Origin: a virus
IMG/VR virus record: IMGVR_UViG_3300022746_000029
Location: 1-49,061 of that record
Direction: 5' to 3' (one strand)
DNA length: 49,061 nucleotides
Position 1 is the first letter of the stretch, and each line of letters opens with the position of its first letter. Positions 2,639 to 34,262 of the stretch are shown piece after piece. Both the position numbers and the translations under genes were made by a program. The notes beneath the pieces are model-generated. The model was not told the origin of the DNA. It saw only the letters and a program-made list of their open reading frames with translations, and did not search any database.

Positions 2639-3739
2639 ATGGAAAACGTTACTTCACGTCAGGTCGAGGCAGCTAAGCTCCTCGAAGGCGCAATCCGTGG
2701 CGATAAGAGCGACCAGCTCAAGCTCCGCGAAGGCATTGCAACCAGCGACCTCCCTGTGCAGCTGGCCCCAACCATCAACAAGATCATGCTTCAGAACTAC
2801 GCAGACCAGCCAAAGGTCTGGGGTTCGTTCGCTCAGAAGCTCGTTGTTGACGACTTCCGCCCAGTCAACTACATGAACCTCGCTTACGAGGACGACGGCG
2901 TTGACAACATGGGTGACAAGTTCCGCGAGGGATCGCTGCCTACCGTTGGCGAGTACGACGAGTACCCAACTGCTGGTTGGTTCTCATTTAGCGAGGCCGA
3001 GTTCGCAGTTAAGAAGTCGGGTTCGCGTATCCGCTTCTCGTGGGAGTCGATTGTCAACGACAACAACATCTCGATCCTTGAGCGTCTGCCTCTCGAGCTT
3101 GCTCGCAAGGCTGCTGGTAAGGAAGACGAAGAGGCCACCAAGCAGCTCGTCTCGGCAACCGGCCTCAACACCGGCAACTTCAAGTCGGGCAACCAGAACC
3201 TCCTGGCTGGCAACCCAGCTCTGACCCTAGAGTCGCTTGAGGCAGCTATCGTTGCAGCTAACGTCCAGACCTACAACGGCAAGACCATCACTCCGTTCAG
3301 CCGTTTCGTACTGGTTGTTAACGCTGGTCTTGAAATGACCGCTAAGAAGATCCTTGCTATCCAGCAGGTTCGCACTGAGGTCACCAACGGTAGCACCGTA
3401 ACCTCGACTGTTTCGGGCAACCCAATTGCTGCAAACATTCAGGTTGTTGTCAACCCATGGCTGAAGAAGATCAACGCTAGCTCGGACAACTACTGGTTCC
3501 TGATCCCGGTTCCTTCGGACACCCTCAACCCAGGTGTTGTTCTTGGCTTCCTCCGTGGCTACGAGTCGCCAGAGCTCCGCGTTAAGGCTAACGGCGGTCT
3601 CTACATCGGTGGCGGTCTGGTTCCTGCTCGCGAAGGTTCGTTCGACAACGACGACTTCGAGATGCGAATCCGTCACATCGCAACTGGTGGCATGATCATG
3701 CCTACCGGTACCATCGCCTCGACTGGTGCTGGCGCTTAA
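2639..3739 (+). CDS. major capsid protein
   Basis: A 366-aa HK97-fold type major capsid protein. Evidence is position after protease and decoration genes, length, a very strong codon preference indicating high expression, an N-terminal helical arm, a central DNMGDKFREGSLPTVGEYDEY loop-like segment, and a C-terminal DNDDFEMRIRHIATGGMIMP strand typical of capsid P-domain ends. SD is AAGGATAAATT. The gene is followed within 12 bp by a strong terminator at 3751-3790, so head transcription ends here. No N-terminal scaffold domain is visible, consistent with a separate scaffold in the upstream protease. Confidence 0.88.
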   Translation: MENVTSRQVEAAKLLEGAIRGDKSDQLKLREGIATSDLPVQLAPTINKIMLQNYADQPKVWGSFAQKLVVDDFRPVNYMNLAYEDDGVDNMGDKFREGSLPTVGEYDEYPTAGWFSFSEAEFAVKKSGSRIRFSWESIVNDNNISILERLPLELARKAAGKEDEEATKQLVSATGLNTGNFKSGNQNLLAGNPALTLESLEAAIVAANVQTYNGKTITPFSRFVLVVNAGLEMTAKKILAIQQVRTEVTNGSTVTSTVSGNPIAANIQVVVNPWLKKINASSDNYWFLIPVPSDTLNPGVVLGFLRGYESPELRVKANGGLYIGGGLVPAREGSFDNDDFEMRIRHIATGGMIMPTGTIASTGAGA

Positions 3740-4234: not shown

Positions 4235-6352
4235 ATGGAAAACAACTATAATTACCATGAACTAAACGCAATGATCAACCTCTGGGATTCAGAGGGCAAG
4301 TTACAGTTGCACAAGGATAAGGAAGCAGCACGATCATACTTCCTTGATCACGTTAACCAGAATACTGTATTCTTTCACAGCCTTGAAGAGAAGCTTAACT
4401 ACCTCGTCGAGCATGACTACTACGACCAGTCTGTGCTGGACCAGTATGGCTTCGAGGATGTCAAGGCGGCATTCCAGCAGGCCTACGCTCATAAGCACCG
4501 CTTTGAGGCGTTTATGGGCGCATACAAGTTTTATACCTCGTATGCCCTGAAGACCTTCGATGGTACTCGCTACCTAGAGCGATTCGAGGACCGTGTGGTC
4601 ATGAATGCTCTCGTACTGGCACAGGGTGACATTAAGATGGTCAAGAAGCTTATCGATGAAATCATCACCGGTCGTTTCCAGCCAGCAACCCCGACGTTCC
4701 TGAACGCAGGTAAGAAGCAGCGTGGTGAATTCGTCTCGTGCTTCCTGCTTCGCACCGAGGATAACATGGAGTCGATCTCTCGTGCAATCAATTCGTCGTT
4801 GCAGCTATCGAAGCGTGGCGGTGGTGTTGCACTCAACTTATCGAATATTCGTGAGTCAGGTGCGCCGATCAAGAAGATCGAGGGTCAGAGCTCAGGCATC
4901 ATCCCGGTAATGAAGCTTCTCGAAGACAGTTTCAGCTATGCCAACCAGCTGGGCGCACGTCAGGGTGCAGGTGCCGTCTATTTGAACGCACACCACCCAG
5001 ACATCATGAAGTTCCTTGACACCAAGCGCGAGAACGCAGACGAGAAGATCCGTATCAAGTCGCTCTCAATCGGTGTCGTCGTTCCTGACGTGACCCTCGA
5101 GCTGGCTCGCACCAACGAAGACATGTACCTGTTCTCGCCATACGACGTCGAGAAGGTTTACGGCATCCCATTTGGCGACATCTCGGTCACCGAGAAGTAC
5201 CAAGAGATGGTCGACGATCCACGCATTAAGAAATCGAAGATCAAGGCTCGTGTGCTGTTTGAGCGAATCGCTGAGTTGCAGTTCGAGTCAGGTTACCCAT
5301 ACATCATGTATGAGGATACCGTTAACAAGGCTAACCCAATTGCCGGTCGCATCAACATGTCGAACCTATGCTCGGAGATCCTCCAGGTGAACAGCCCGTC
5401 TGTTTACAACGAAGATCTTTCATATGCCGAGATCGGAACTGACATTAGCTGCAACCTTGGCTCATTGAATATTGCTAAGGTAATGGATGGTGGCAATCTG
5501 GCTCAGACCGTAGATGCCTCAATTCGGGCTCTAACGTCTGTCTCAGACCTTAGTAGCATCGAGTCGGTGCCATCTATCAGGGATGGCAATAAGCGGGCTC
5601 ATGCGATCGGCCTAGGCCAGATGAACCTACATGGATTCCTCGCTCGCGAGCATATCCATTACGGATCGGAAGAGGGCGTAGACTTTACGAACATGTACTT
5701 CTACGCAGTGGCTTACCACGCAATCAAGGCAAGCAATAAGATTGCCAAGGAACGCGGTGAGACGTTTGCTGGGTTCGAGAACTCGAAGTATGCAACTGGT
5801 GAGTTCTTTGACAAGTACATCAACCAGGAATGGAAGCCGGCGACCAAGAAGGTTGAAGATCTATTTGCCAAGTTCGGTATTGAGCTCCCTACTGTGCATG
5901 ACTGGGAGCTTCTAAAGAAGTCTGTCAAGGCATATGGTATCTACAATCAGAACCTACAAGCTGTACCACCTACCGGTTCGATCAGCTACATCAATAACTC
6001 CACCTCGTCGATTCACCCGATTGCTTCAAAGATTGAAACTCGCAAGGAAGGCAAGCTTGGACGTGTTTACTATCCAGCTCCTTACCTCAGCGACGACACC
6101 ATGGAGTACTTCCAAGACGCATACGAGATTGGCCCAGAGGCTATCATTGATACCTATGCTGCGGCAACTCAGCATGTTGATCAAGGCCTCTCGTTGACTC
6201 TGTTCTTCAAGGATACTGCAACTACCCGAGATGTTAACCGAGCACAGATCTACGCTTGGAAGAAGGGCATCAAAACTATTTACTATATCCGTATTCGCCA
6301 AATGGCTTTGGATGGCACTGACGTTGAACAATGCGTCAGCTGCATGTTGTAA
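4235..6352 (+). CDS. nrdE: ribonucleotide reductase alpha subunit, class Ib
   Basis: A 705-aa catalytic subunit that reduces ribonucleoside diphosphates to deoxy forms. Visible hallmarks are [15 protein letters not shown], the redox cysteines in FVSCFLL (about C169) and DISCNLGS (about C406), the NLCSEI active-site signature (about 375-380), and the C-terminal relay pair in EQCVSCML (C700, C703). Length is normal for NrdE, with no ATP-cone extension at the N-terminus, as usual for class Ib. SD is AAAAAGGAG. The gene lies between nrdH and nrdF and supplies dNTPs for phage replication with ThyX and dUTPase encoded elsewhere. Confidence 0.95.
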
Positions 6353-6358
6353 GGATGA

Positions 6359-7312
<954 letters not shown>

Positions 7313-7329
7313 TCTACAATTGAATAGTA

Positions 7330-7338
7330 TGATATAAT
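7330..7338 (+). promoter_or_regulatory. extended -10 promoter for a short RNA
   Basis: TGATATAAT is a consensus extended -10 18 bp after the nrdF stop. Transcription would start near 7344-7346, that is at the 5' side of the hairpin at 7343-7365, and would stop at the terminator at 7377-7422. Confidence 0.6.
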
Positions 7339-7343
7339 ATATA

Positions 7344-7422
7344 CGCGGATACCTCCTTTCCGCGTGTGTGTGTTACAAGACCCCCTTGTTGAGCCTTCTT
7401 GCTCCGAGGGGGTCTTTTCTTT
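7344..7422 (+). ncRNA. putative small RNA with anti-Shine-Dalgarno loop
   Basis: About 75-80 nt bounded by a consensus extended -10 promoter and a strong intrinsic terminator, with no reading frame. Its 5' end forms a 7-bp stem (ACGCGGA at 7343-7349 with TCCGCGT at 7359-7365) that presents the loop TACCTCCTT. ACCTCCTTTC reproduces the 3' end of 16S rRNA that pairs with Shine-Dalgarno sequences, and the flanking GGAT is also present in rRNA. The RNA could pair with ribosome binding sites of host or phage mRNAs. The alternative is a chance hairpin in the nrdF 3' UTR. Confidence 0.5.
7377..7422 (+). terminator. intrinsic terminator after nrdF and the short RNA
   Basis: AAGACCCCC pairs with GGGGGTCTT (9 bp), with an inner GAGC/GCTC extension, followed by TTCTTTT. 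It ends both the nrd message and the short RNA. Confidence 0.92.
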
Positions 7423-7431
7423 TGTTCACGA

Positions 7432-7437
7432 TAGAAT
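7432..7437 (+). promoter_or_regulatory. -10 element before the first fibre gene
   Basis: TAGAAT ends 9 bp before the ATG at 7447. No Shine-Dalgarno sequence lies upstream of that ATG, so the message is likely leaderless or nearly so, a common initiation mode in actinobacteria. GATAnAATAG-like sequences recur at 15982, 23693 and 13605. Confidence 0.4.
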
Positions 7438-7446
7438 AGACGTACA

Positions 7447-8334
7447 ATGATCATTTTTCCAGATAACAATCTCCCTCAGCAGTCGCAGGATTGGGCTGAT
7501 AAGGTTGAGAATGAAATAAAGAAACTAGACAAGAAGTCTGGTGGATCTGGCGCACCCGGAAGCGATGGAGTTCCGGGACCAAAGGGCGAACAGGGCGAGC
7601 AGGGTGTACAAGGAGAGCAGGGGCCAGAGGGCCTCGTTGGACCGCAAGGTATCCAAGGCGAACAAGGAATACAGGGTATCCAAGGTGAGGTCGGACCTCA
7701 AGGAGCTCAAGGACTTGAGGGGCCTGAAGGTCCGCAAGGTATCCAAGGTCCACAGGGCGAAACTGGACCTATGGGACCGCAGGGTCCTCAAGGAGAGCAG
7801 GGCCCAGCTGGCGCAGACGGCAATACTGGACCGCAAGGAATCCAAGGTATTGCTGGTCCTCAAGGACCACAAGGCATACAAGGCGAAACTGGTCCTGCTG
7901 GTCCACAAGGTGATACTGGTCTCACGGGTTCTATGGGGCCTATGGGTCCTTCTGGTGCAAAGGGAGATCAAGGCCTTCAAGGAGATCAGGGCCTAACTGG
8001 CCTCTCAGCCTATCAGGTCGCACAGCTAAATGGATTCAATGGAACCGAGCAAGACTGGCTAGCGTCGCTAGTCGGCGCAGATGGTGCTACTGGCCCACAG
8101 GGGCCTCAAGGTGACGCTGGAATCCAAGGACCCGCCGGCCCTAAAGGTGACACCGGTTTAACTGGTCCACAGGGCGTACAGGGTCTTACTGGACCTAAAG
8201 GTGACACCGGAGCTACTGGTCCACAGGGACCATCTGGCGTAGCCTATGCAACATCGCCTGTTGAATACAACTCTGGCACACAGACCATCTCGCTGAATTA
8301 CAATCTACTTATCATCAATGGCGGTACCGCATAA
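7447..8334 (+). CDS. collagen-like tail fibre protein
   Basis: A 295-aa fibre. Residues 1-35 form an anchor (IIFPDNNLPQQSQDWADKV) resembling the start of the tail protein at 22976. Residues about 37-265 are Gly-X-Y repeats (GPQGIQGPQGETG style) forming a trimeric collagen-like rod, interrupted near 190-215 by LTGLSAYQVAQLNGFNGTEQ, a non-collagen knob common in phage fibres. The C-terminus ends INGGTA, shared with the fibre ending at 9528. It overlaps the next gene by one base. Probable role: side fibre or host contact. The DNA is itself repetitive and prone to recombination. Confidence 0.85.
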   Translation: MIIFPDNNLPQQSQDWADKVENEIKKLDKKSGGSGAPGSDGVPGPKGEQGEQGVQGEQGPEGLVGPQGIQGEQGIQGIQGEVGPQGAQGLEGPEGPQGIQGPQGETGPMGPQGPQGEQGPAGADGNTGPQGIQGIAGPQGPQGIQGETGPAGPQGDTGLTGSMGPMGPSGAKGDQGLQGDQGLTGLSAYQVAQLNGFNGTEQDWLASLVGADGATGPQGPQGDAGIQGPAGPKGDTGLTGPQGVQGLTGPKGDTGATGPQGPSGVAYATSPVEYNSGTQTISLNYNLLIINGGTA

Positions 8335-25409: not shown

Positions 25410-26095
25410 TATGGTGCAACCCTTCGGTTCTTTACGAATGACGCATGAGTAGCTGGCATCCAGCCTGAGAAGATTGCTTCCATCTTTTCGGCAACCATCT
25501 CGATCTCGCGCTGCGGGAACGAAGGGAATGCACTGTTATCGTCCTTGGTGCGAAGGCTCAAGAAGTTCATCAGCGATCGTGCGTTCATTGTTACATACAT
25601 CGATGAATAGATATTAACTGGCAGCACAACACGAGCAACCTCACGTGCAATGCCAGCTGCTAACATACTCTCGTAGCGATTATATGCTTCCTTTGACGCG
25701 CTGATGATTGACTCAACAACTAGGTCGTGTTGCTCTTCTGTGCCCGGAATGAACTCATAAGCTCCCGGCTTGCCAATCTGAATCAGATTACGCTTACCGC
25801 CTGGAACGTAGAAAACAGGCTCTAGCTCCTTGTATCGGCCGCTCTCCTCATTATATGAGGCCATGCGGTGACGCATGAACTCGCGGAACACGAAGATTGG
25901 CGCTTCAATGCGGAACGTAAACACGGCGTGTTCAAATGGGCTGCCATGTCGGTCGCGCATTAGATAGTTAATGAGCCCAGCGTCACGATCTTTATTGTCA
26001 CTAGCACCAGTAGAAACTCGAGCCGCCTTGACGATGATATCGTCAGAAGCCATAGCATCAATAAGATCAACTGTAACATCGGTCCTGTACTTCAC
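25409..26095 (-). CDS. thyX: flavin-dependent thymidylate synthase
   Basis: A 228-aa enzyme that makes dTMP from dUMP using FAD and methylene-tetrahydrofolate. The ThyX signature RHRMASYNEESGRY is at residues 75-88, with SPFEHAVFTF before it and an active-site region LPVNIYSSMYVTMNARSLMNF after it. Length is normal. It works with the adjacent dUTPase, which supplies dUMP, and with NrdE/F. One-base overlaps with neighbours indicate an operon. Confidence 0.96.
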   Translation of the reverse strand: MKYRTDVTVDLIDAMASDDIIVKAARVSTGASDNKDRDAGLINYLMRDRHGSPFEHAVFTFRIEAPIFVFREFMRHRMASYNEESGRYKELEPVFYVPGGKRNLIQIGKPGAYEFIPGTEEQHDLVVESIISASKEAYNRYESMLAAGIAREVARVVLPVNIYSSMYVTMNARSLMNFLSLRTKDDNSAFPSFPQREIEMVAEKMEAIFSGWMPATHASFVKNRRVAP

Positions 26096-26511
26096 TATAC
26101 TCCCGTCGATCCAAAGCCGCCGCCTCCACGCTCAGTTGCATCTAGTGAATTAACCTCGTTGAATTCCGCAACAACGTGTCGTACAAATACCAGCTGAGCA
26201 ATACGGTCGCCCGGTTTAATCGGGAACCAGTCTTCGCTTGCATTGTGCAAGATAACGCCGATCTCTCCACGGTATCCAGAGTCGATGATTCCCGGTGCGT
26301 TAAGCACGAAGATACTATTCTTCAGCGATAGCCCTGATCGTGAACAGACCATACCGACCATGCTCTCTGGAATTGCAATTGACGTTCCAGTCTTTACAAG
26401 CCTTGTCTGTCCCGGAGTAAGCGTTAGCTCCTCGGTTGAGACCAGATCAGCCCCTGCGTCACCAATCTGTGCATATGCTGGCACATTCCCAATCACATTA
26501 ATCTTTGCCAT
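26095..26511 (-). CDS. dut: dUTPase (trimeric)
   Basis: A 138-aa enzyme that converts dUTP to dUMP and pyrophosphate. All five motifs are present in order: DAGADL, CSRSGLS, GIIDSGYRGEIGVIL, GDRIAQLV and the flexible glycine-rich RGGGGFGSTG at the C-terminus. Directly upstream of thyX in the same operon. SD is AGGAGGAAC. Confidence 0.96.
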   Translation of the reverse strand: MAKINVIGNVPAYAQIGDAGADLVSTEELTLTPGQTRLVKTGTSIAIPESMVGMVCSRSGLSLKNSIFVLNAPGIIDSGYRGEIGVILHNASEDWFPIKPGDRIAQLVFVRHVVAEFNEVNSLDATERGGGGFGSTGV

Positions 26512-26518
26512 GTTCCTC

Positions 26519-26902
26519 CTAATACTTCTTCTTGCCAGAACCAGTCATAACCCATAGGGTTACATCTGGAACCAGCTCTTTGATCTTCGCTAGAATAGCA
26601 CGATTGTTATCAGTGAAGTCAGTGATGTTATTACGCTTAATAACCCCAGCCTTCTTCTCTGCAACTTGAGCTTCTGATCCACTGACAAATACTACTCGCT
26701 GGCAGTTTGGAAAATTGTCATTAACCATTGCGCTAATGGCACTATGCACAGCTGGGATATCTGGCTGAGCAGTGATAATAATAAAGTTGCCAGTCGGTCG
26801 ATGAATGACCTTTGCTTCCTTAATGTTGGCTACCATTTGTGCAGTATTGTAGACTGAGTAATCGATCTTTACGAGTGTGTCAACTAGATCGTAGGCCTGC
26901 AT
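26519..26902 (-). CDS. HAD-like protein (phosphatase fold), uncertain
   Basis: A 127-aa protein. It starts AYDLVDTLVKID, which resembles HAD motif I (hhhDxDxT) but with Val at the second Asp position. FIIITAQP fits motif II, a Lys in AEKKAG may be motif III, and ITDFTDNN fits motif IV. The fold is therefore plausible, but the altered motif I raises doubt about hydrolase activity. In an operon with dut; it could act on nucleotides or nucleic-acid ends. Confidence 0.5.
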   Translation of the reverse strand: MQAYDLVDTLVKIDYSVYNTAQMVANIKEAKVIHRPTGNFIIITAQPDIPAVHSAISAMVNDNFPNCQRVVFVSGSEAQVAEKKAGVIKRNNITDFTDNNRAILAKIKELVPDVTLWVMTGSGKKKY

Positions 26903-27087
26903 TATTTAGCCTTCTTGTCGCCCGGCCAAGTGCCGCCCGGATCCATCTTCTGAGCAATTGAGATGGCAACCATCTGTGCAATCGCTGCCTGCTTGTTTGG
27001 GTGACAGCCATGAATCTTCTTATCCGAACTGATCACAGCCCAGCGGCCTTTGCAGTCTTTTTGTGTCTTGCTAATGTAATACGGCAT
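26902..27087 (-). CDS. small conserved-type phage protein
   Basis: A 61-aa basic protein: PYYISKTQKDCKGRWAVIS, then GCHPNKQAAIAQMVAIS, then DPGGTWPGDKK. This layout is common in actinophage small proteins whose 'H.tk..A..q..AI' segment is sometimes seen beside proteases or nucleotide genes. Function unknown. One-base overlaps with both neighbours. Confidence 0.75.
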   Translation of the reverse strand: MPYYISKTQKDCKGRWAVISSDKKIHGCHPNKQAAIAQMVAISIAQKMDPGGTWPGDKKAK

Positions 27088-27299
27088 TACTCCTCCTTCT
27101 TGTTTCTATCGGTCCGGTAGAAACCTGAACCCTTAAATGTCACTGCGCCAAAGTTATACTTGCGAGTCATTGCCTTTTTACAATCTTCACAAGCCGGTTC
27201 AGTAACTGTATCCTTAATGTTTGCGACGATTAACAGCTTGGTTTTGCAATCCTTACATTCATAATCATACGTCGGAATCTTCTTCACCACCGATCTCAT
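27087..27299 (-). CDS. FmdB-like zinc ribbon protein
   Basis: A 70-aa protein with PTYDYECKDC near the start and EPACEDCKKAM after it: two CxxC knuckles forming a zinc ribbon, like FmdB/regulatory ribbon proteins, then FGAVTFKGSGFYRTD, a standard FmdB ending. The start is uncertain: ATG 27299 has no good SD and GTG 27290 is possible; both lie inside the end of the upstream gene. Confidence 0.75.
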   Translation of the reverse strand: MRSVVKKIPTYDYECKDCKTKLLIVANIKDTVTEPACEDCKKAMTRKYNFGAVTFKGSGFYRTDRNKKEE

Positions 27300-27543
27300 C
27301 TGCTGGGAATTCGTAGTTATCGAATTCATCCAATGCTTTACATCTGATGCAGTCTACCACATTGCATGGATTATCGCAATGGATACAGGTATATTCATCT
27401 CGATCAATCTTCTTAAATGATGGAGCGTCACAGGCACACACTAGATGGACAATAACATTCGCGTCCATCTCTTCGCTGTACATATGCAACACATGCTCCT
27501 TATAACCCGCTGGAACAACAAGTGGAGGGAGCTCTTTTAACAA
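27265..27543 (-). CDS. cysteine-rich protein of unknown function
   Basis: A 92-aa protein when started at TTG 27543, which has GGAGG 5 bp upstream and follows the exonuclease stop; a longer form from GTG 27627 would overlap the exonuclease by 62 bp without an SD. It contains HLVCACDAPSF and YTCIHCDNPCNVVDCIRC, a cluster of about seven Cys that likely binds zinc, and an acidic C-terminus. No family recognised. Confidence 0.6.
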   Translation of the reverse strand: MLKELPPLVVPAGYKEHVLHMYSEEMDANVIVHLVCACDAPSFKKIDRDEYTCIHCDNPCNVVDCIRCKALDEFDNYEFPADEIGGEEDSDV

Positions 27544-27565
27544 GCCCACCTCCACATAATTGCGC

Positions 27566-28303
27566 TTAAACAGCCGAGCGAAGAGCGACGTTAGATACCG
27601 CAGTACCGCCACGCGTCCACTTCCCACAGTTCTTGCACTGGTAACGCTGGTATTTAGCTACGGTAGTATAGCTAAAGCCACGTCGCTCCATGTTAGTTGA
27701 TGCACAGTTGGGGCAGCCATCCAGAACATCGTCGTGCAGTGCTCGGTTCGGATGGTTCTTGATCCAAGGCAGTAGCTTATCATAAAGGTCGATCAGCAGG
27801 TCTACGTCATGAATCTGATACTTCTTCATTTCCGCCCACGCTTTGTTGTCTCCTGCCATGCAAGCGACCCATAGATCAAAACCCGAGTGCTTAACTTTAG
27901 AACCAACTCCAAGCTTTTGCGCCACATAATCGAGTTTGTTTGACGGGAACTTAAACTGTGAACGCACAACACGCATGAGATCAAGCTCTTTGTACGGTGA
28001 CGGTGGGGTGTAGCCGTTCTCAAGGAGCTCTCGCTTAATGTGCTTAGAGTCAAAGCTTTGGCTATTCCAGCCCACAAGTACATCAGCCTCATTAACAAGT
28101 TCCCAAAGCGTATCAAGCATCGCTTCTTTGCCGTCATGGTGTACAGACTTGAAGGTAACTTTCTTTTCACCATTCCACCTTGCTCCGAAGCAGATCACTT
28201 CGGTTGACTTTACCATTTGGTTGATAGATACATTCTGGTTGAACAATCCCCAAACATATGCCATGTTCGGGCTTGTCTCCAGATCCAAGAATAGAATCTT
28301 CAT
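27566..28303 (-). CDS. DEDD-type 3'-5' exonuclease with C-terminal zinc ribbon
   Basis: A 245-aa protein. ExoI is FLDLETSP (D7, E9), ExoII is LVGWNSQSFDSKHI, and ExoIII is YQIHDVDLLIDLY, the family of PolB-like and DnaQ-like proofreading exonucleases. Residues about 195-230 add a zinc ribbon (GCPNCAS..., YQCKNCGKW), unusual for a proofreading domain and suggestive of DNA binding. No polymerase domain is attached, and none is found elsewhere in the genome. Confidence 0.85.
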   Translation of the reverse strand: MKILFLDLETSPNMAYVWGLFNQNVSINQMVKSTEVICFGARWNGEKKVTFKSVHHDGKEAMLDTLWELVNEADVLVGWNSQSFDSKHIKRELLENGYTPPSPYKELDLMRVVRSQFKFPSNKLDYVAQKLGVGSKVKHSGFDLWVACMAGDNKAWAEMKKYQIHDVDLLIDLYDKLLPWIKNHPNRALHDDVLDGCPNCASTNMERRGFSYTTVAKYQRYQCKNCGKWTRGGTAVSNVALRSAV

Positions 28304-28304
28304 A

Positions 28305-28751
28305 TTACTCCTTCCACCCGGCTTCTAGCGTGGGCTTGTGCTTTTTGTTGCGGAGGTAGATAACACCATGACGAACAGCATCCATTGCATGTCCTCGGCT
28401 CGGTGTATATAGACCCATCTTCTTAAGGCGCTCATCGTCGCATAGAGGCTTCATTGACGGTTCCTGATAGATAATATCATCGGACTCGTGTAAGGCCTCT
28501 AGTGCCCCGATTATGTACGTTGGCGACAGGTCTACGCCGTAGACTCCTTCGCGGAGAGTGAATGACTCGCAGATGATCTCACTATAGAGCCAGTCTTGCA
28601 ACTGATCCCAGTGAAAATTTAGGAAGCCCTGCAGGCCGCCTTCGATCTGCTTGTGCCAAATAATACTTGGCGCAGTTTCTTCATCATACTCTAGAAGGGC
28701 AACACCAGTTGTGCCACCCGGATCGAGGCATAGCAGTCTAGACTTCCACAC
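28305..28751 (-). CDS. RuvC-like Holliday junction resolvase
   Basis: A 148-aa RNase H-fold nuclease. Catalytic acidic residues are recognisable: Asp in LLCLDPGGTTGVALLEY, Glu in IICESFTLR and Asp in HAMDAVRHGV. Such proteins resolve branched DNA before packaging. Starts GTG at 28751, overlapping the upstream 55-aa gene by 14 bp. Functions with the recombination genes at 31.8-33.8 kb. Confidence 0.85.
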   Translation of the reverse strand: MWKSRLLCLDPGGTTGVALLEYDEETAPSIIWHKQIEGGLQGFLNFHWDQLQDWLYSEIICESFTLREGVYGVDLSPTYIIGALEALHESDDIIYQEPSMKPLCDDERLKKMGLYTPSRGHAMDAVRHGVIYLRNKKHKPTLEAGWKE

Positions 28752-28905
28752 CGTAGGCCTCCTTCAGGATTCGTAGATACTGATAGCACTGCTTTGCCAG
28801 CTTGTCAGTAGCTCCAGACTCATAGCGATCGCAGTGGAATCGCAGAGCCTTTGTATCTTGCTTTACTTCCTCAAATTTGGCTTTGCGTGACATTAGATCA
28901 GCCAT
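28738..28905 (-). CDS. 55-aa helical protein
   Basis: A 55-aa protein (MADLMSRKAKFEEVKQDT..., then DKLAKQCYQYLRILKEAYGV), charged and probably helical. SD AAGGAGGA 4-5 bp before the ATG is strong. It overlaps the upstream HTH gene by 8 bp and the resolvase by 14 bp, so it belongs to the operon. Function unknown. Confidence 0.7.
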   Translation of the reverse strand: MADLMSRKAKFEEVKQDTKALRFHCDRYESGATDKLAKQCYQYLRILKEAYGVEV

Positions 28906-29302
28906 TGTCCTCCTTAAGTTTCTTGCTAATTGTGCTCTGGCTTACGCCAGTTAGCTTTGCAACCATGTGTTGTGATGTTCCGAGCTCTACCGCCTGTGAG
29001 ATCAGGTCAAAGTCTGACTCTGATTCTGCTCGGCGGTATAGCACAGAGCGTAGCAGCTCTAATGAGCCCGGGTTCAGGCTGCCACCAGACTTGTTGCTCT
29101 TGCCTGTTATGCGAGCAACTGACTGATGGCTTACCCGACCCGCTGTAATAGCTTGTATCTGGCGGTTGGAGAACACACCGAACACAGCTAGCCGCTTTAC
29201 ACCATCCTCGATATCCACGCGGGACAGCAGGTGGATGTTATCCCTCAGCCAGATAGCTTCATTCAGTGCTGATGCTACCTTCAATGCTTCGTTACGATCC
29301 AT
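28898..29302 (-). CDS. helix-turn-helix DNA-binding protein
   Basis: A 134-aa protein with two HTH-like stretches: VSHQSVARITGKS near the middle and TSQHMVAKLTGVSQSTISKKL at the C-terminus, the latter a good homeodomain-like HTH. It could be a transcription regulator of early genes; it is one candidate for the factor that reads the GATAAC repeats near 41-42.7 kb, but nothing in the sequence proves this. It overlaps the primase-helicase stop. Confidence 0.7.
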   Translation of the reverse strand: MDRNEALKVASALNEAIWLRDNIHLLSRVDIEDGVKRLAVFGVFSNRQIQAITAGRVSHQSVARITGKSNKSGGSLNPGSLELLRSVLYRRAESESDFDLISQAVELGTSQHMVAKLTGVSQSTISKKLKEDNG

Positions 29303-31497
29303 TATCCAATCACCTCCAAATACGTTTTCTGGTTTTCTATTACTTGCTGCACACGCGCCTGCGATTGCAGGGCCTGTACCATTTCGTCGAATTCGCGCTT
29401 GCGCTTGTTGTTAAACTTGCGATACGCTTCTTCATAACGAATTCGCCCACCCTTATCCATGACTAACGCTTCAAGTTTGTCGACGTCGCGCTGCCATTCA
29501 GAGTTTGAGATCGCACTAGCCATCTCAGTTAGGTTGGCAAACCAGTCTTCAGAATAGTAAATAGCAATAAGCATATGCTTAAGTCTTACTTCATCTGACT
29601 GGTCATACATAGCCAATAGGATTGCACACTTCCAAACAGATAGCGCTAGTCGCTGTCGGCTAGGTTCGATCGATTCGTATTCTGGGTGGGACTCGGCAAA
29701 GTTTCCCATCTCCCATTTGAATCGGTTGAACCGCTCCAGTGCCGAGTGATCCAATCGGATCGGTCGCGGCATTGGCGAGCCCTTCTTCTGCCAGTAGGTA
29801 ACTGCGCTATAAAGTGACTTAACCAAAGAGTCTAGCTTACCATCTTTAATGATCGCTTCATGCTCTTCGGCCTGTTGGATATCCTCCATCTCACGAGTAC
29901 GGTCTGGCGTCTTGGCTGTAACATAAATGAAACGCGCCAAGAAGCCAGACTTAAAGTACTCAGTAGTGAGAACATCAGCTGTCTTCGATCCGATACCCAT
30001 AAGATACATTACGAAGTTTGTGGTTGCTCGCTCAGTCTGGGATTTGCCCTTGCCTGATCGGATTACAACCGGAACATGGCCGTCATACAATTCAGTGAAT
30101 CGCTCGGCTGCTGAGGCCATGTAGGTTTTGTTCATGAAGTCTTTGAACATACCTTGGACTTCATCTCTGTGCAATAGGGAAGTCTTTCCGTCTCGCTCAG
30201 AAAGGATAGACGTAACACCTTCCGGCGTTGCATCCGAACCAATGTCGATCTGGTAGCCAGAGAACTTTTCATACTCGCGAATCAGTCGCAACATAAGGTT
30301 ACGGCTAGTTGACTTACGAGTAAGAGTTGTTTCACCTAGCACCATAAACCACAGGTTCAGGCCCATACGTCCGTACTTTGGCACAGCATAACCAATGTCG
30401 GAGAATACGCACGATAGCGCAGTAAATGCACTAGCGATCTGATAACTGATCGCACCGTCCGTCTTCGATGTGGCCCATCCTAGATATTCATCCACGAACG
30501 TTGGCGTCTCCATGACCAAAGAACGCTCGTCGTCGCTTAGGAATACAGCTCGTTCGGGCTCCTGCGAGATCACAATGGTGTCGAGTGGCTCGATACGCAC
30601 TGGCTCAAGCATTCCGCCCTCTGCAACGAACGACTGGTGCGCTCGCTGCACTTCACGCCATAGATCGCCATCTGCATCCATGCGCTTTGATCGTAGTGGT
30701 GAGTGATACTTGTTGCACTTCGCACCGCGACATACAACGAATACCTCTCGCTCACTTAGGCCTTGGCGATACAAGGCGATCTCTAGCTTCCACAGAAGTT
30801 TGGACCAGTCTGCATTCGGAGAAGGCTCGTTGATATATAAGCCAAGCACTTCTGGATTACTCTGGACCTTATTCAGTGTAGTCATGAGGTCTGGGAATTC
30901 TGGTGGGAGTTCTGAGATTGTCAGTTCCCGAATTGGTTCAACTTCAACATCACCATAGTGCAGCTCGATATCATCAAGCGTGTATAGTGATCCGTTGCTA
31001 ACGGCCGTAACGCTAAATGGTTCGCGCTTTAGGTTCATTGAGTTTGGCACACGGAGAAGCTTAGTGGTATTCCAGCCCGACTTGTCACAGCCTTGGTGTG
31101 CGTGAGCGTGTGCGATCTTCTTGGATAGAAGTGCAGCTACCTGTGGATCTGTCTCTTCAGTCAGCATCCAGTAGGTATGCCAGCGATCTGGCGAGGTCTG
31201 CACGACGATCGAAGGCTCGATCAAGAAGTTGTCTGGCTCACAAGTGTCTGCATCGGAATAGATAACTGATACAGTCTTAGCATTTTCTTTAATACGACGT
31301 GGCGAGTTGAAAAGAATTGGTGAGAAGTAAACATCTTCGCGAGTGTGTAGATTGCAGTATGCGATCATCTCGTCTTTGCGCTCTGGATACTCGTAGAACC
31401 GCTGCTCGGTTAGTTCGCCAGTAGCACCTTTGGTTACGATAGTCGCTAGTCCACGGCCATCGCCAAATACTGCAGAAAAAAAATCCGCTGTCTTCAT
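29302..31497 (-). CDS. primase-helicase (AEP-type N-terminus, DUF3987-like C-terminus)
   Basis: A 731-aa replication protein. Residues about 60-200 hold an archaeo-eukaryotic primase-like core: VIYSDADT (hDhD metal motif), SPDRWHTYWML (sxH) and DKSGWNTTKLLRVPNS. Residues about 330-700 form a DUF3987-like ATPase, with GETTLTRKST in place of a P-loop, then SLLHRDEVQGMF (Walker B-like) and YLMGIGSKTADVL. It probably primes and unwinds phage DNA for host polymerase. SD AAAGGAGGA is excellent. Downstream are HTH and resolvase genes. Confidence 0.85.
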   Translation of the reverse strand: MKTADFFSAVFGDGRGLATIVTKGATGELTEQRFYEYPERKDEMIAYCNLHTREDVYFSPILFNSPRRIKENAKTVSVIYSDADTCEPDNFLIEPSIVVQTSPDRWHTYWMLTEETDPQVAALLSKKIAHAHAHQGCDKSGWNTTKLLRVPNSMNLKREPFSVTAVSNGSLYTLDDIELHYGDVEVEPIRELTISELPPEFPDLMTTLNKVQSNPEVLGLYINEPSPNADWSKLLWKLEIALYRQGLSEREVFVVCRGAKCNKYHSPLRSKRMDADGDLWREVQRAHQSFVAEGGMLEPVRIEPLDTIVISQEPERAVFLSDDERSLVMETPTFVDEYLGWATSKTDGAISYQIASAFTALSCVFSDIGYAVPKYGRMGLNLWFMVLGETTLTRKSTSRNLMLRLIREYEKFSGYQIDIGSDATPEGVTSILSERDGKTSLLHRDEVQGMFKDFMNKTYMASAAERFTELYDGHVPVVIRSGKGKSQTERATTNFVMYLMGIGSKTADVLTTEYFKSGFLARFIYVTAKTPDRTREMEDIQQAEEHEAIIKDGKLDSLVKSLYSAVTYWQKKGSPMPRPIRLDHSALERFNRFKWEMGNFAESHPEYESIEPSRQRLALSVWKCAILLAMYDQSDEVRLKHMLIAIYYSEDWFANLTEMASAISNSEWQRDVDKLEALVMDKGGRIRYEEAYRKFNNKRKREFDEMVQALQSQARVQQVIENQKTYLEVIG

Positions 31498-31525
31498 GTA
31501 TCCTCCTTTATGTATGGTTCTCCCG

Positions 31526-31597
31526 CTGCCCCTGCTGGACTCGAACCAACAACCTTGAAGTTAACAGCTTCCTGCTCTGCCATTGAGCTAAGGGGCA
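31526..31597 (-). tRNA. tRNA-Asn (anticodon GTT)
   Basis: A 72-nt cloverleaf on the minus strand: acceptor TGCCCCT/AGGGGCA, U8-A9, D arm GCTC...GAGC, anticodon loop CTGTTAA with GTT at 34-36, and T arm GTTGG-TTCGAGT-CCAGC. The anticodon stem has one mismatch at its base. CCA is not encoded. Asn codon AAC is very frequent in the structural genes, which may explain carriage. Confidence 0.9.
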
Positions 31598-31669
31598 AAA
31601 TATCCTGCAGCTGCCTTGGCCACACTACAGGACCCACATGTCGGCCACTTACGGAGAACATGCAGTTTG

Positions 31670-31753
31670 TGCCCGGAGCAAGAATCGAACTTGCATCAGC
31701 TAACAGAAAGGAGAAAGAAAGGAAGACACCAAAGCTTTAACACCAGTCCGGGC
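31670..31753 (-). tRNA. degenerate or unusual tRNA-like element
   Basis: On the minus strand a perfect 7-bp acceptor (GCCCGGA with TCCGGGC, followed by A) and a perfect T arm (GCAAG-TTCGATT-CTTGC) are spaced as in an 84-nt tRNA. The middle lacks a D arm and an anticodon stem; instead it contains a pyrimidine run of about 20 nt. U8 is replaced by C. It may be a decayed tRNA, a tRNA split by an insertion, or a tRNA mimic. No anticodon can be assigned. Confidence 0.5.
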
Positions 31754-31795
31754 GTTGGGTCAGTTTTAAATCATGACCTAGGATTTTGTTTTCGA

Positions 31796-32263
31796 CTAGA
31801 AGACGTCGCCTACTGGCTTTGCGCCCAAAGCAGCAGCGAGGGTTGCTGCGCCGTCTGGCTTGTCGAAGCCGCCGATCTCGTTTCGAGGCTGTCCGTTCTG
31901 ATCAGTGCCGATCTTGACAGTGACACCGATTGGCTTACCGAGCAACTCGGTGGTCTCTGGAACGGTGAACTTGCCCGACTTCATGTCGTAGCCAAGCGCC
32001 GAGAAGAACGCCTTGGTCTTCCAGAAGTCACCAGCAGCGTAGAGCGAGACGTAACCAAATACGCGACGGTTCTCAACGCCCTGACCACCGAGACGGAACT
32101 GGATGTTGAAGCGCGGCTTACCCTCGTTTGGGCCCGACTTGACCTGCTCCGACTTGACGTCGAAGATCGTGGCGTTGTACGAACCTGCTGGAACTGGCTC
32201 ATAGCTCGATGAATTGGCAGCTGCTAGAGCTTCCTCGGTGATGTCGAATGAAATGTTAGTCAT
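31796..32263 (-). CDS. single-strand DNA-binding-like protein (DUF669 type)
   Basis: A 155-aa protein: SYEPVPAGSYNATIFDVKSE, then GKPRFNIQFRLGG, then RRVFGYVSL and LLGKPIGVTVKIGTDQNG. This is the pattern of DUF669-like phage SSBs with an OB fold that coat ssDNA during replication and annealing. Adjacent to the Sak4-like ATPase and overlapping it by one base, as in known phage recombination cassettes. SD GGAGGAAACAACTA. Confidence 0.8.
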   Translation of the reverse strand: MTNISFDITEEALAAANSSSYEPVPAGSYNATIFDVKSEQVKSGPNEGKPRFNIQFRLGGQGVENRRVFGYVSLYAAGDFWKTKAFFSALGYDMKSGKFTVPETTELLGKPIGVTVKIGTDQNGQPRNEIGGFDKPDGAATLAAALGAKPVGDVF

Positions 32264-32994
32264 TAGTTGTTTCCTCCTTCGTTAATGAGATCAAAGATCT
32301 TCTTCATGGTTGGTGCGTAAATCTTCGGTGGCAAACCGAAGCGGTTCTTAGTTACGAGTCGATCCGAGTTTCCGGTGACGAGGACACGCTGTGGCCCCTC
32401 ATCGCCCATCTCGAACGTCATGTAGCCAACGATATCAGGGATGCCCGGAAGTGTTCCCTTGAATGAGCCCGGAAGCATTGCAGTAGTCTTCACTGCTCCC
32501 GTTGATTCGTCCTTGTCGTCAAGTGCGTGTGCAATAATGATCGATGTGAACGAAGCAGTATGAAGATCACGGAAGACTTGGTTAGCCCAGTTCTTCAGGT
32601 CACCCCAGCGGCCGAACTTGTTGTTCTTGTTCTCAGGCTTCTCGCCAAAGAACTTCTCAGCTCGGTCCATGACAACCCCAATGGTGTCGATGATCACTGC
32701 GTTGTAGTAGTCAGGGTTTGCAAGAAGCTCCTCGATAACCTTGACGAAGCCCTCGTGAGTCTTCACGCTGATAACGTCTACGTTCTTCCAGTCTCGAGCG
32801 ATAGCTGATGCGCCACCCTCAACGTCGATCAAAAGAACCTTGTCATAACCCTCGACCTCTGAGATCGAAGCGGCCAGCCAAGTCTTGCCCTTACCCGGAT
32901 CTGCGAATAGCAAGATCGAGTTTGGCTTATTAAGCTGTTCTGCCTTGTGGATGAGCTTCTGGAATGAGAAGCCCGGAAAGTCGGTTGCCGACAT
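32263..32994 (-). CDS. Sak4-like RecA-family ATPase
   Basis: A 243-aa protein of the Sak4/RecA family that loads or anneals ssDNA with the adjacent SSB. Walker A is ADPGKGKTW (about 31-39), Walker B-like is AVIIDTIGVV, and SIIIAHALDDKDEST follows. ATG 32994 is chosen over the in-frame ATG 33042 because GAGGAGG lies 5 bp upstream and the longer form would include the promoter's -10. Confidence 0.85.
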   Translation of the reverse strand: MSATDFPGFSFQKLIHKAEQLNKPNSILLFADPGKGKTWLAASISEVEGYDKVLLIDVEGGASAIARDWKNVDVISVKTHEGFVKVIEELLANPDYYNAVIIDTIGVVMDRAEKFFGEKPENKNNKFGRWGDLKNWANQVFRDLHTASFTSIIIAHALDDKDESTGAVKTTAMLPGSFKGTLPGIPDIVGYMTFEMGDEGPQRVLVTGNSDRLVTKNRFGLPPKIYAPTMKKIFDLINEGGNN

Positions 32995-33022
32995 TAATTC
33001 CTCCTCTGTTTGTGTGTAATAC

Positions 33023-33052
33023 ATTATACCACATTTAACCAATTGTAGTCAA
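33023..33052 (-). promoter_or_regulatory. strong promoter for the SSB-Sak4 operon
   Basis: On the minus strand TTGACT (33047-33052) is separated by 18 bp from a perfect TATAAT (33023-33028) that also has TGG upstream (extended -10). Expected start near 33016, 20 bp before the Sak4 ATG. Confidence 0.85.
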
Positions 33053-33070
33053 ATATGTTACTGCGTGTCG

Positions 33071-33772
33071 CTAAATTCCCATAGAACATTTGAAGCAATG
33101 CTCATTGGGTGGATAGTTATCTGGATGAGCTCCATCTTGCAGTTCGTTCCACAGGGCAACTAGTCGATCCCATAGTGCAATCGCTATCTGTCCCTCGTAA
33201 GGAATAGAATAGGTCCAGATATCTTCGGCATATGTGCCGTCGCGATTGATAAACACGATCGTGATATCATCGATTTTAGTTCCGGCCTGATTCAATCCCC
33301 AAGCATACAGCTGGGTTTGGCCGATATACTTCTGAAGCGTATACTCCGAAGCCGGACTCTGCTTAATGCCGTCTACTAGATCTTTGATCAGCTTAACCTT
33401 CTTACGGCTGCTAGTCTTCCAGTCGATTAGATGATTAATGCTAGGAAGAACGAGGTCAGGCTTGCTGCTAATGCCACCGTAACCATCGATATAACCCAGT
33501 TCAATCTTACGCTCAACAATAGCATCGCTAAAGATATGCTCTGTGCTAGTATCAATAGCGTTTTCAATAAAGCTATGGATAGCTGTTCCAATCTTACCTC
33601 CCAACCAATACTTTGCCGGCGGTTCTTTCTCACCAATCAGCGCTTTTGCTAAATGTCTAGTGCATGGATCGGAGATCTGACTTGCTCCGACTTTGCGTTG
33701 CTTATCTCGTTCTGATTCCTGTAGAAACAGATCAACTGTAAGATCCTTGATAGAGCGTTTCAATAAGGTCAT
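33071..33772 (-). CDS. PD-(D/E)XK exonuclease (Cas4/RecB-like)
   Basis: A 233-aa nuclease. The core motif is seen in SKPDLV...LIDWKTS (Asp, then D-x-K with downstream Ser) and IGTAIHSFIENAI supplies the RecB-like helix. YIGQTQLYAWGL is the QxxxY motif. The C-terminal EHCFKCSMG may hold metal. Likely resects DNA for Sak4/SSB recombination. ATG 33772 has GGAGGAGG 5 bp upstream. It overlaps the WhiB gene by 41 bp. Confidence 0.85.
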   Translation of the reverse strand: MTLLKRSIKDLTVDLFLQESERDKQRKVGASQISDPCTRHLAKALIGEKEPPAKYWLGGKIGTAIHSFIENAIDTSTEHIFSDAIVERKIELGYIDGYGGISSKPDLVLPSINHLIDWKTSSRKKVKLIKDLVDGIKQSPASEYTLQKYIGQTQLYAWGLNQAGTKIDDITIVFINRDGTYAEDIWTYSIPYEGQIAIALWDRLVALWNELQDGAHPDNYPPNEHCFKCSMGI

Positions 33773-34262
33773 ATTCCTCCTCCTGTGTAAAATCAATGCC
33801 ACCCCAAATACCTTGGTTGACTTCGGCCGCTACTGCATAGTCGTAGCACAGCTTGATCAGTGGGCAGCCATGGCAAGCTTCTTCGGCCATGTCTTCCGAT
33901 ACTGGATATTGTCTATCTACATAGACAGATTCAGCACCTTTGCACTTTGGATCATTCTCACTAATAGCATACTGCAACTCTCGCCACTTGTCAATAGCGT
34001 CAGCTGATAGCGTGTTCTCATACTCGATGATCACTTGCCGAATCTTCTTCTGGCGTGACGCTCCGGTTAGCTCCTTGTTGCGCTGATACTTCTCACGAGC
34101 ATACTGCTTGCGACATTCTCGGCACACGCGGGCCTTATCATACGCTCGAATGAATGTATTCTCTGGCGTAAACTCATGGCCCTTAGAACAGTGTGTCCCT
34201 CGCTTGCGCTTCTTGCCCCACGGATTATGGTTCTCTGCTTCCTCCCACTCGTATTTACTCAT
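33732..34262 (-). CDS. zinc-finger / WhiB-like fusion regulator
   Basis: A 176-aa protein of two parts. Residues about 20-65 form an HNH-type zinc module (HCSKGHEF, then TFIRAYDKARVCRECRKQY). Residues about 100-165 are a WhiB domain: C107, then C130-HG-C133-PLIKL-C139 and the turn GIWGG at 151-155, which bind a 4Fe-4S cluster and sigma factor region 4. WhiB proteins are restricted to actinobacteria and their phages, so this supports the host assignment. It may control phage or host promoters. Overlaps both neighbours. Confidence 0.88.
   Translation of the reverse strand: MSKYEWEEAENHNPWGKKRKRGTHCSKGHEFTPENTFIRAYDKARVCRECRKQYAREKYQRNKELTGASRQKKIRQVIIEYENTLSADAIDKWRELQYAISENDPKCKGAESVYVDRQYPVSEDMAEEACHGCPLIKLCYDYAVAAEVNQGIWGGIDFTQEEEYDLIETLYQGSYS

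Follow-up and report, generated by a model that had tools for sequence, protein, structure and literature searches.

A phage-borne family of small RNAs with an anti-Shine-Dalgarno loop and its possible role in translational switching

The virus sequence analyzed here (hereafter the window, that is, the complete virus record, 49,061 bases long) contains a promoter-hairpin-terminator unit of approximately 75-80 nt (positions 7330-7425) that represents a well supported RNA family, in which an anti-Shine-Dalgarno (anti-SD) loop remains constant on top of a covarying stem. The putative RNA would act in trans, masking strong SDs on the early mRNAs of the phage and sparing the late genes, and would thus work as a switch, an interpretation that we consider probable although far from certain, in the absence of any RNA, protein, reporter or structure data. 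What can be read from the genomes is the unit itself, its conservation, the covariation under a constant loop, the synteny, a neighboring gene with a predicted leaderless mRNA and an asymmetry of SD strength that is linked to the RNA; that the unit is transcribed, that its RNA pairs and represses, that it acts late and that it affects the host are inferences.

Structure and conservation of the unit

In the window, the unit starts with an extended -10 element (TGATATAAT, 7330-7338, + strand) that was read directly from the sequence and is not accompanied by a clear -35 element. It is followed on the same strand by the anti-SD hairpin (7342-7366, arms 7342-7349 and 7359-7366; minimum free energy (MFE) fold and six covarying pairs), with a stem of 7 bp plus a closing G-U (8 pairs) and the loop TACCTCCTT (7350-7358, + strand), which includes the anti-SD core CCUCCUU, the complement of AAGGAGG. 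A GU-rich single-stranded linker of 10 nt (GUGUGUUAC..., 7367-7376, + strand), which is found in about half of the family and is very short in the remainder according to the alignment, precedes an intrinsic terminator (7377-7416, with a U tract to 7425, + strand; fold, alignment and outer-stem covariation) that in the window consists of a 16-pair hairpin with a two-base UU bulge and the U tract behind it. The MFE of the 84-nt stretch is -38.2 kcal/mol (z = -6.8; none of the 200 shuffled sequences was as good), and both this fold and the reading of the sequence bear out the extended -10, stem, nine-base anti-SD loop and terminator described in the first-pass annotation. The placement of the anti-SD in an unpaired hairpin loop is supported by the fold, the individual instances and the covariation.

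The TGn extension of the -10 element is present in 33 of the 44 aligned instances, and in 30 of the 44 the end of the -10 element is 5-6 nt away from the first hairpin base, so that transcription is predicted to begin at the hairpin or directly beside it, with the hairpin as the 5' end of the RNA; the start had previously been placed at the first base of the hairpin, in agreement with this spacing. In the window, the RNA would start near 7343-7346 and end near 7417-7425, with its own promoter and its own terminator, both of which are conserved at the sequence level in all aligned instances (no transcription has been shown). An inner motif of the terminator, GUUGAG...CUCC, is retained across most of the family together with the UU bulge (7389-7390); such conservation exceeds the needs of a terminator, and contact with a protein or an RNA is possible. 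Wherever this motif occurs in a terminator context in the loci examined, it is preceded by the anti-SD hairpin.

Because a sequence of the length of the window should contain the octamer ACCTCCTT by chance about once, the motif alone is no proof, and the question becomes that of conservation in relatives. Relatives were fetched by homology to the major capsid protein alone, the hairpin being ignored in choosing the denominator. This gave 72 loci; in 53 of them the sequence also extends over the tail-fibre gene downstream, and the unit is present in each of these 53, with CUCCU in the hairpin loop of every covered locus without any selection on the loop (the 44 distinct aligned instances had been collected using the CUCCU core, so that its presence there is selected). 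The loop keeps CUCCU, usually as CCUCCUU, and the flanking loop letters drift; the stems are unrelated among relatives (GTCACG/CGTGGC, GTCGCG/CGCGAC, GTCCCA/TGGGAC, AGCAGG/CCTGCT, GTAAGG/CCTTAC and others), with 31 distinct stem pairs altogether. A simple hairpin scan of whole contigs detects one copy or none, never two.

A covariance model built from the 44 close-lineage instances only gave 65 matches in 1 Mb, representing 51 distinct sequences. In these 51 sequences, each of the six anti-SD hairpin pairs shows two-sided changes and 90% of the cells are paired; for the whole structure, 96.4% of the cells are paired, compared to 69.9% in shuffled and 39-53% in slid controls, and 226 two-sided changes were counted against 74 in the shuffles. 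The outer stem of the terminator also covaries. Given that the model alignment is fitted to the structure, a model-free exchange of 3' arms between instances was also performed, and the mean best stem dropped from 7.0 to 4.8 bp. With a MAFFT alignment, in which the stems were misaligned, RNAalifold did not recover the anti-SD hairpin; the covariance model solved this problem. The proposal that related phages would keep the loop constant and let the stem covary between a -10 element and a terminator was thus put to the test and passed decisively, and no covered locus has kept the terminator but lost the loop, the outcome named in advance as a refutation. The similarity of the window to 16S rRNA outside the loop (GGAT) is coincidental, given that the stems of the relatives differ completely and only (C)CUCCU is kept.

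Distribution and genomic context

A strict pattern (TATAAT-CCTCCTT-CCYYGTTGAG) matched 36 viral contigs, and 34 of these are real; the 13 matches obtained from bacterial and archaeal genomes (257 Gb) all lack the hairpin. The model also recovers two cultured phages on which it was not trained, Clavibacter phage CN1A (E 0.002) and Stenotrophomonas phage Jojan60 (E 0.018), in both cases behind the capsid gene (the capsid proteins are 37-42% identical), and 9 of the 10 loci fetched with these capsid proteins contain a model match, one being the record of CN1A itself. A fused form, in which the terminator behind the capsid gene itself displays the loop, occurs in Arthrobacter phages Amigo and Molivia (UUCCUCC at its tip, on stems that differ between the two phages) and in Microbacterium phages Lupine and ISF9, where loops of the CUCCUCCUCC type are nested within it. 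No such unit was found behind the capsid genes of Nonagon, Lifes, LeeroyJenkins, TripleJ, LuckyBarnes, Montesquieu, MinS1 and Blf4, and the post-capsid CU-rich stretches of Streptomyces phages Satis, Kela and Frankenweenie and Clavibacter phage CMP1 form no clear hairpin. Among 80 loci of NrdF homologs, none has the hairpin; this route to relatives failed because nrdEF is a passenger whose homologs belong to other phages.

Two further sets of matches were rejected. An exact search with GGATACCTCCTTTCC hit 23 contigs, where the hairpin is present only in the sibling of the window phage and the rest are mostly reverse-complemented ribosome binding sites (RBSs), and weak model matches in large nrdF-type phages (G023, G024, G027 and G039) lack a CUCCU loop.

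The syntenic anchor of the family is the major capsid protein gene (2639-3739, + strand; tblastn matches with annotated major capsid proteins, for example 42% over 100%), and the usual order in the relatives is the capsid gene, a terminator, the small RNA (sRNA) unit and a tail-fibre gene. In the window, nrdE and nrdF (4235-7312, + strand; ORFs) form a lineage-specific insert between the capsid gene and the unit, an arrangement shared with a few other phages and absent from most relatives. The capsid-sRNA gap is a site where nrd genes and a glutaredoxin-like gene have landed (4235-7312 in the window and three other loci, L142, L159 and L163). In other phages (L028, L035, L041, L043 and others), a conserved promoter and leader are located just behind nrdF; an inverted repeat in this leader (TTGTTAG...CTAACAAGGAG) extends into the SD, so that an SD-sequestering leader is possible. 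The relatives of the capsid protein and NrdF of the window phage point, by sequence, to an Actinomycetota host. Jojan60 (L226), although recorded from a gammaproteobacterium, has the capsid gene, gene order and sRNA in common with the actinobacterial phages.

Immediately downstream of the unit, with the order kept in the relatives, is a collagen-like tail-fibre gene (7447-8334, + strand; ORF) with a TAGAAT -10 box 9 nt upstream of its ATG (7432-7446, + strand), the apparent promoter of a predicted leaderless mRNA. In all 40 readable instances, a -10 box is located 4-10 nt upstream of the ATG of this gene, and an SD-like stretch of any kind precedes it in only 5 of the 40. The tail-fibre mRNA is therefore predicted to be leaderless and not to need an SD. 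The gene behind the capsid gene or the sRNA unit is predicted to be leaderless in nearly all relatives and also in phages without the hairpin (Nonagon, CMP1), an observation that speaks against the proposed switch.

The fixed position between the capsid and tail-fibre genes could also suggest an element that acts in cis, such as an attenuator of the tail-fibre gene, a DNA cruciform or a packaging or replication signal. This we regard as very unlikely, considering that a separate promoter for the tail-fibre gene follows immediately after the terminator, that both the G-U pairs of the stem and the invariant succession of promoter, hairpin and terminator favor an RNA, and that the anti-SD loop would be left unexplained. 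Still less credence can be given to a decoy of the 16S rRNA 3' end that would sequester a ribosomal protein, an initiation factor or a processing enzyme: the loop is identical to part of the 16S tail, and in the window even GGAT/TTTC is similar, but only (C)CUCCU is conserved, the 16S-like flanks are gone in the relatives and the stems are unrelated. For the same reason, namely that conservation is limited to the SD-pairing core and does not extend further along the 16S 3' end, the ribosome mimic suggested in the first-pass annotation becomes less likely. A chance combination of a promoter-like and a hairpin-like intergenic stretch, to which the expected abundance of the octamer lends its only support, can be practically dismissed, since the unit is found in 53 of the 53 loci and the stem covaries under a constant loop; it is equally hard to reconcile with the model matches in distant phages and with the specificity of the strict pattern for viral contigs.

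Comparison with known anti-SD RNAs

By analogy, the phage RNA may work like the bacterial sRNAs with anti-SD loops but, judging from its architecture, location and covariance model tests, it is a member of no family tested. Staphylococcal RNAIII and RsaE-type RNAs block SDs with CU-rich (C-rich) loops but these bacterial RNAs differ from the phage RNA in having defined regulons and a larger size or another architecture. The RNAs of the RF02278 family are presumably of anti-SD character as well. These betaproteobacterial toxic small RNAs are short (57-92 nt) and end in a terminator (PMC4603805), features shared by the phage RNA; however, they are chromosomal, with unknown function, and their covariance model has no match in the window or in nine carrier-phage loci. 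The alpha-r14 (NfeR1) and 'cuckoo' RNAs of Rhizobiales and other proteobacteria combine ultraconserved anti-SD loops with variable stems and repress by RBS occlusion, through pairing around the start of translation (PMC10746234). The anti-SD in a hairpin loop, the constancy of the loop and the variability of the stems are a shared property rather than homology: these chromosomal RNAs of bacteria contain three hairpins carrying CCUCCUCCC, a criterion that the phage RNA does not meet by fold or alignment, whereas the phage-borne RNA, encoded behind the capsid gene, has a single 5' hairpin with CCUCCUU or variants thereof. The actinobacterial 6C (B11) RNA binds RBSs with C-rich loops and also represses by RBS occlusion (PMC10470900). 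It resembles the phage RNA in being short with a C-rich loop, but has two loops of cytosine runs, and the 6C covariance model yielded no match at the gathering threshold in the window and none at E up to 5 in the nine carrier-phage loci. A search against Rfam gave nothing at gathering thresholds in the window and, at the unit, only weak, chance-level scores at relaxed ones. Bacterial sRNAs with anti-SD loops are known as specific regulators; in line with the first-pass annotation, which knew of no described phage RNA of this kind, we found none from a phage in the open-access literature.

SD strength and the putative translational switch

Under the proposed mechanism, the 5' hairpin would display CCUCCUU, the anti-SD of 16S rRNA, and the RNA, acting in trans, would base-pair with strong SDs (GGAGG/AGGAGG) in the early mRNAs of the phage, and probably also in host mRNAs, and keep 30S subunits from binding there. 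Late structural genes would escape because their SDs are weak or because, as in the case of the tail-fibre gene, there is no leader, and the net effect would be an early-to-late switch of translation.

The distribution of SDs was assessed with simple ORF calls in which the start was chosen for the best SD, with identical treatment of both strands, and an SD of 6 nt or more was considered strong. Across the carriers, strong SDs precede 5% of the ORFs on the late strand and 33% on the early strand; for the first 13 carriers, the counts are 26 of 470 late-strand ORFs and 135 of 383 ORFs on the opposite, replication-gene strand (p = 2e-29). Two permuted motifs show no strand asymmetry, and almost none was seen in the control positions inside genes. 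Phage by phage, the split has the expected direction in 18 of the 20 carriers and 5 of the 6 phages with the fused or distant form, compared to 5 of the 15 phages without the RNA (p = 2e-5 and 0.005, respectively). The two exceptions among the carriers are fragments with fewer than five opposite-strand ORFs (three carrier contigs are of this kind); Lupine, from the group with the fused or distant form, shows no asymmetry, and LeeroyJenkins shows a mild one although it lacks the RNA. The carriers are related, so that they do not amount to 20 independent observations, a concern that the distant-form phages help to alleviate. Furthermore, strong SDs are more abundant on the early genes of carriers than on the early genes of phages that lack the RNA.

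The best predicted duplexes between the loop and RBSs involve mostly early-strand replication genes and differ between phages; the predicted targets include primase, ATPase, SSB-like protein, dUTPase and nuclease (names assigned here by inspection of the proteins). A search of the predicted duplexes for one target gene conserved across the carriers found none. In the phages with the GU-rich linker, a CA-rich stretch is located upstream of the SD in 26 of 178 early genes compared to 7 of 216 late genes; such stretches could extend the pairing with the linker (7367-7376 in the window).

Pairing of the RNA with SDs is likely, and repression is supported only indirectly, by the distribution of SDs. 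Among the suggestions of the first-pass annotation, pairing with RBSs that represses messages remains the best-supported reading, in keeping with the genome-wide asymmetry, but undemonstrated. A trans-acting RNA of this type might instead fine-tune one or a few specific targets, such as the replication ATPase or primase, without any global switch, as the limited regulons of known sRNAs with anti-SD loops and the CA-rich stretches before some early SDs would allow. We consider this rather unlikely because the best predicted targets are numerous and vary by phage, only the SD-pairing core of the loop is kept while the flanking letters drift, and the depletion of strong SDs spans the entire late strand. 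It is more doubtful still that the RNA serves mainly in host takeover, blocking SD-led host mRNAs, with the SD pattern of the phage as a by-product of self-protection of late genes: the anti-SD is generic, the late genes avoid strong SDs and one of them is predicted to be leaderless, but the early genes of carriers are enriched in strong SDs compared to phages without the RNA, and an early shut-off would harm them.

The weakest step of the proposed early-to-late switch is the inferred late timing, for which the sole hint in the sequence is the place and strand of the unit in the late module; the promoter looks host-type, with an ordinary extended -10, and so provides no reason for late timing. 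A broader version, in which the phage sorts its genes by SD strength and a single sRNA shuts the strong-SD class, including SD-led host mRNAs, at the onset of the late phase, can be put forward only tentatively. If true, it would be a simple mechanism of translational timing, and perhaps of host takeover, through a genome-wide partition of SDs, and could be turned into a programmable tool for switching translation from SD-led to leaderless mRNAs or back. Cultured phages, namely Jojan60 and Arthrobacter phage Amigo with its relatives, allow a direct test of the anti-SD RNA idea.

In the window, the early region consists of replication-type genes (26095-33802, - strand), several of which have strong SDs and are predicted targets of the loop; AAGGAGG precedes the genes at 29302-31497 and 31796-32263 on this strand, and a tRNA gene (31526-31597, - strand) is located in the same region.
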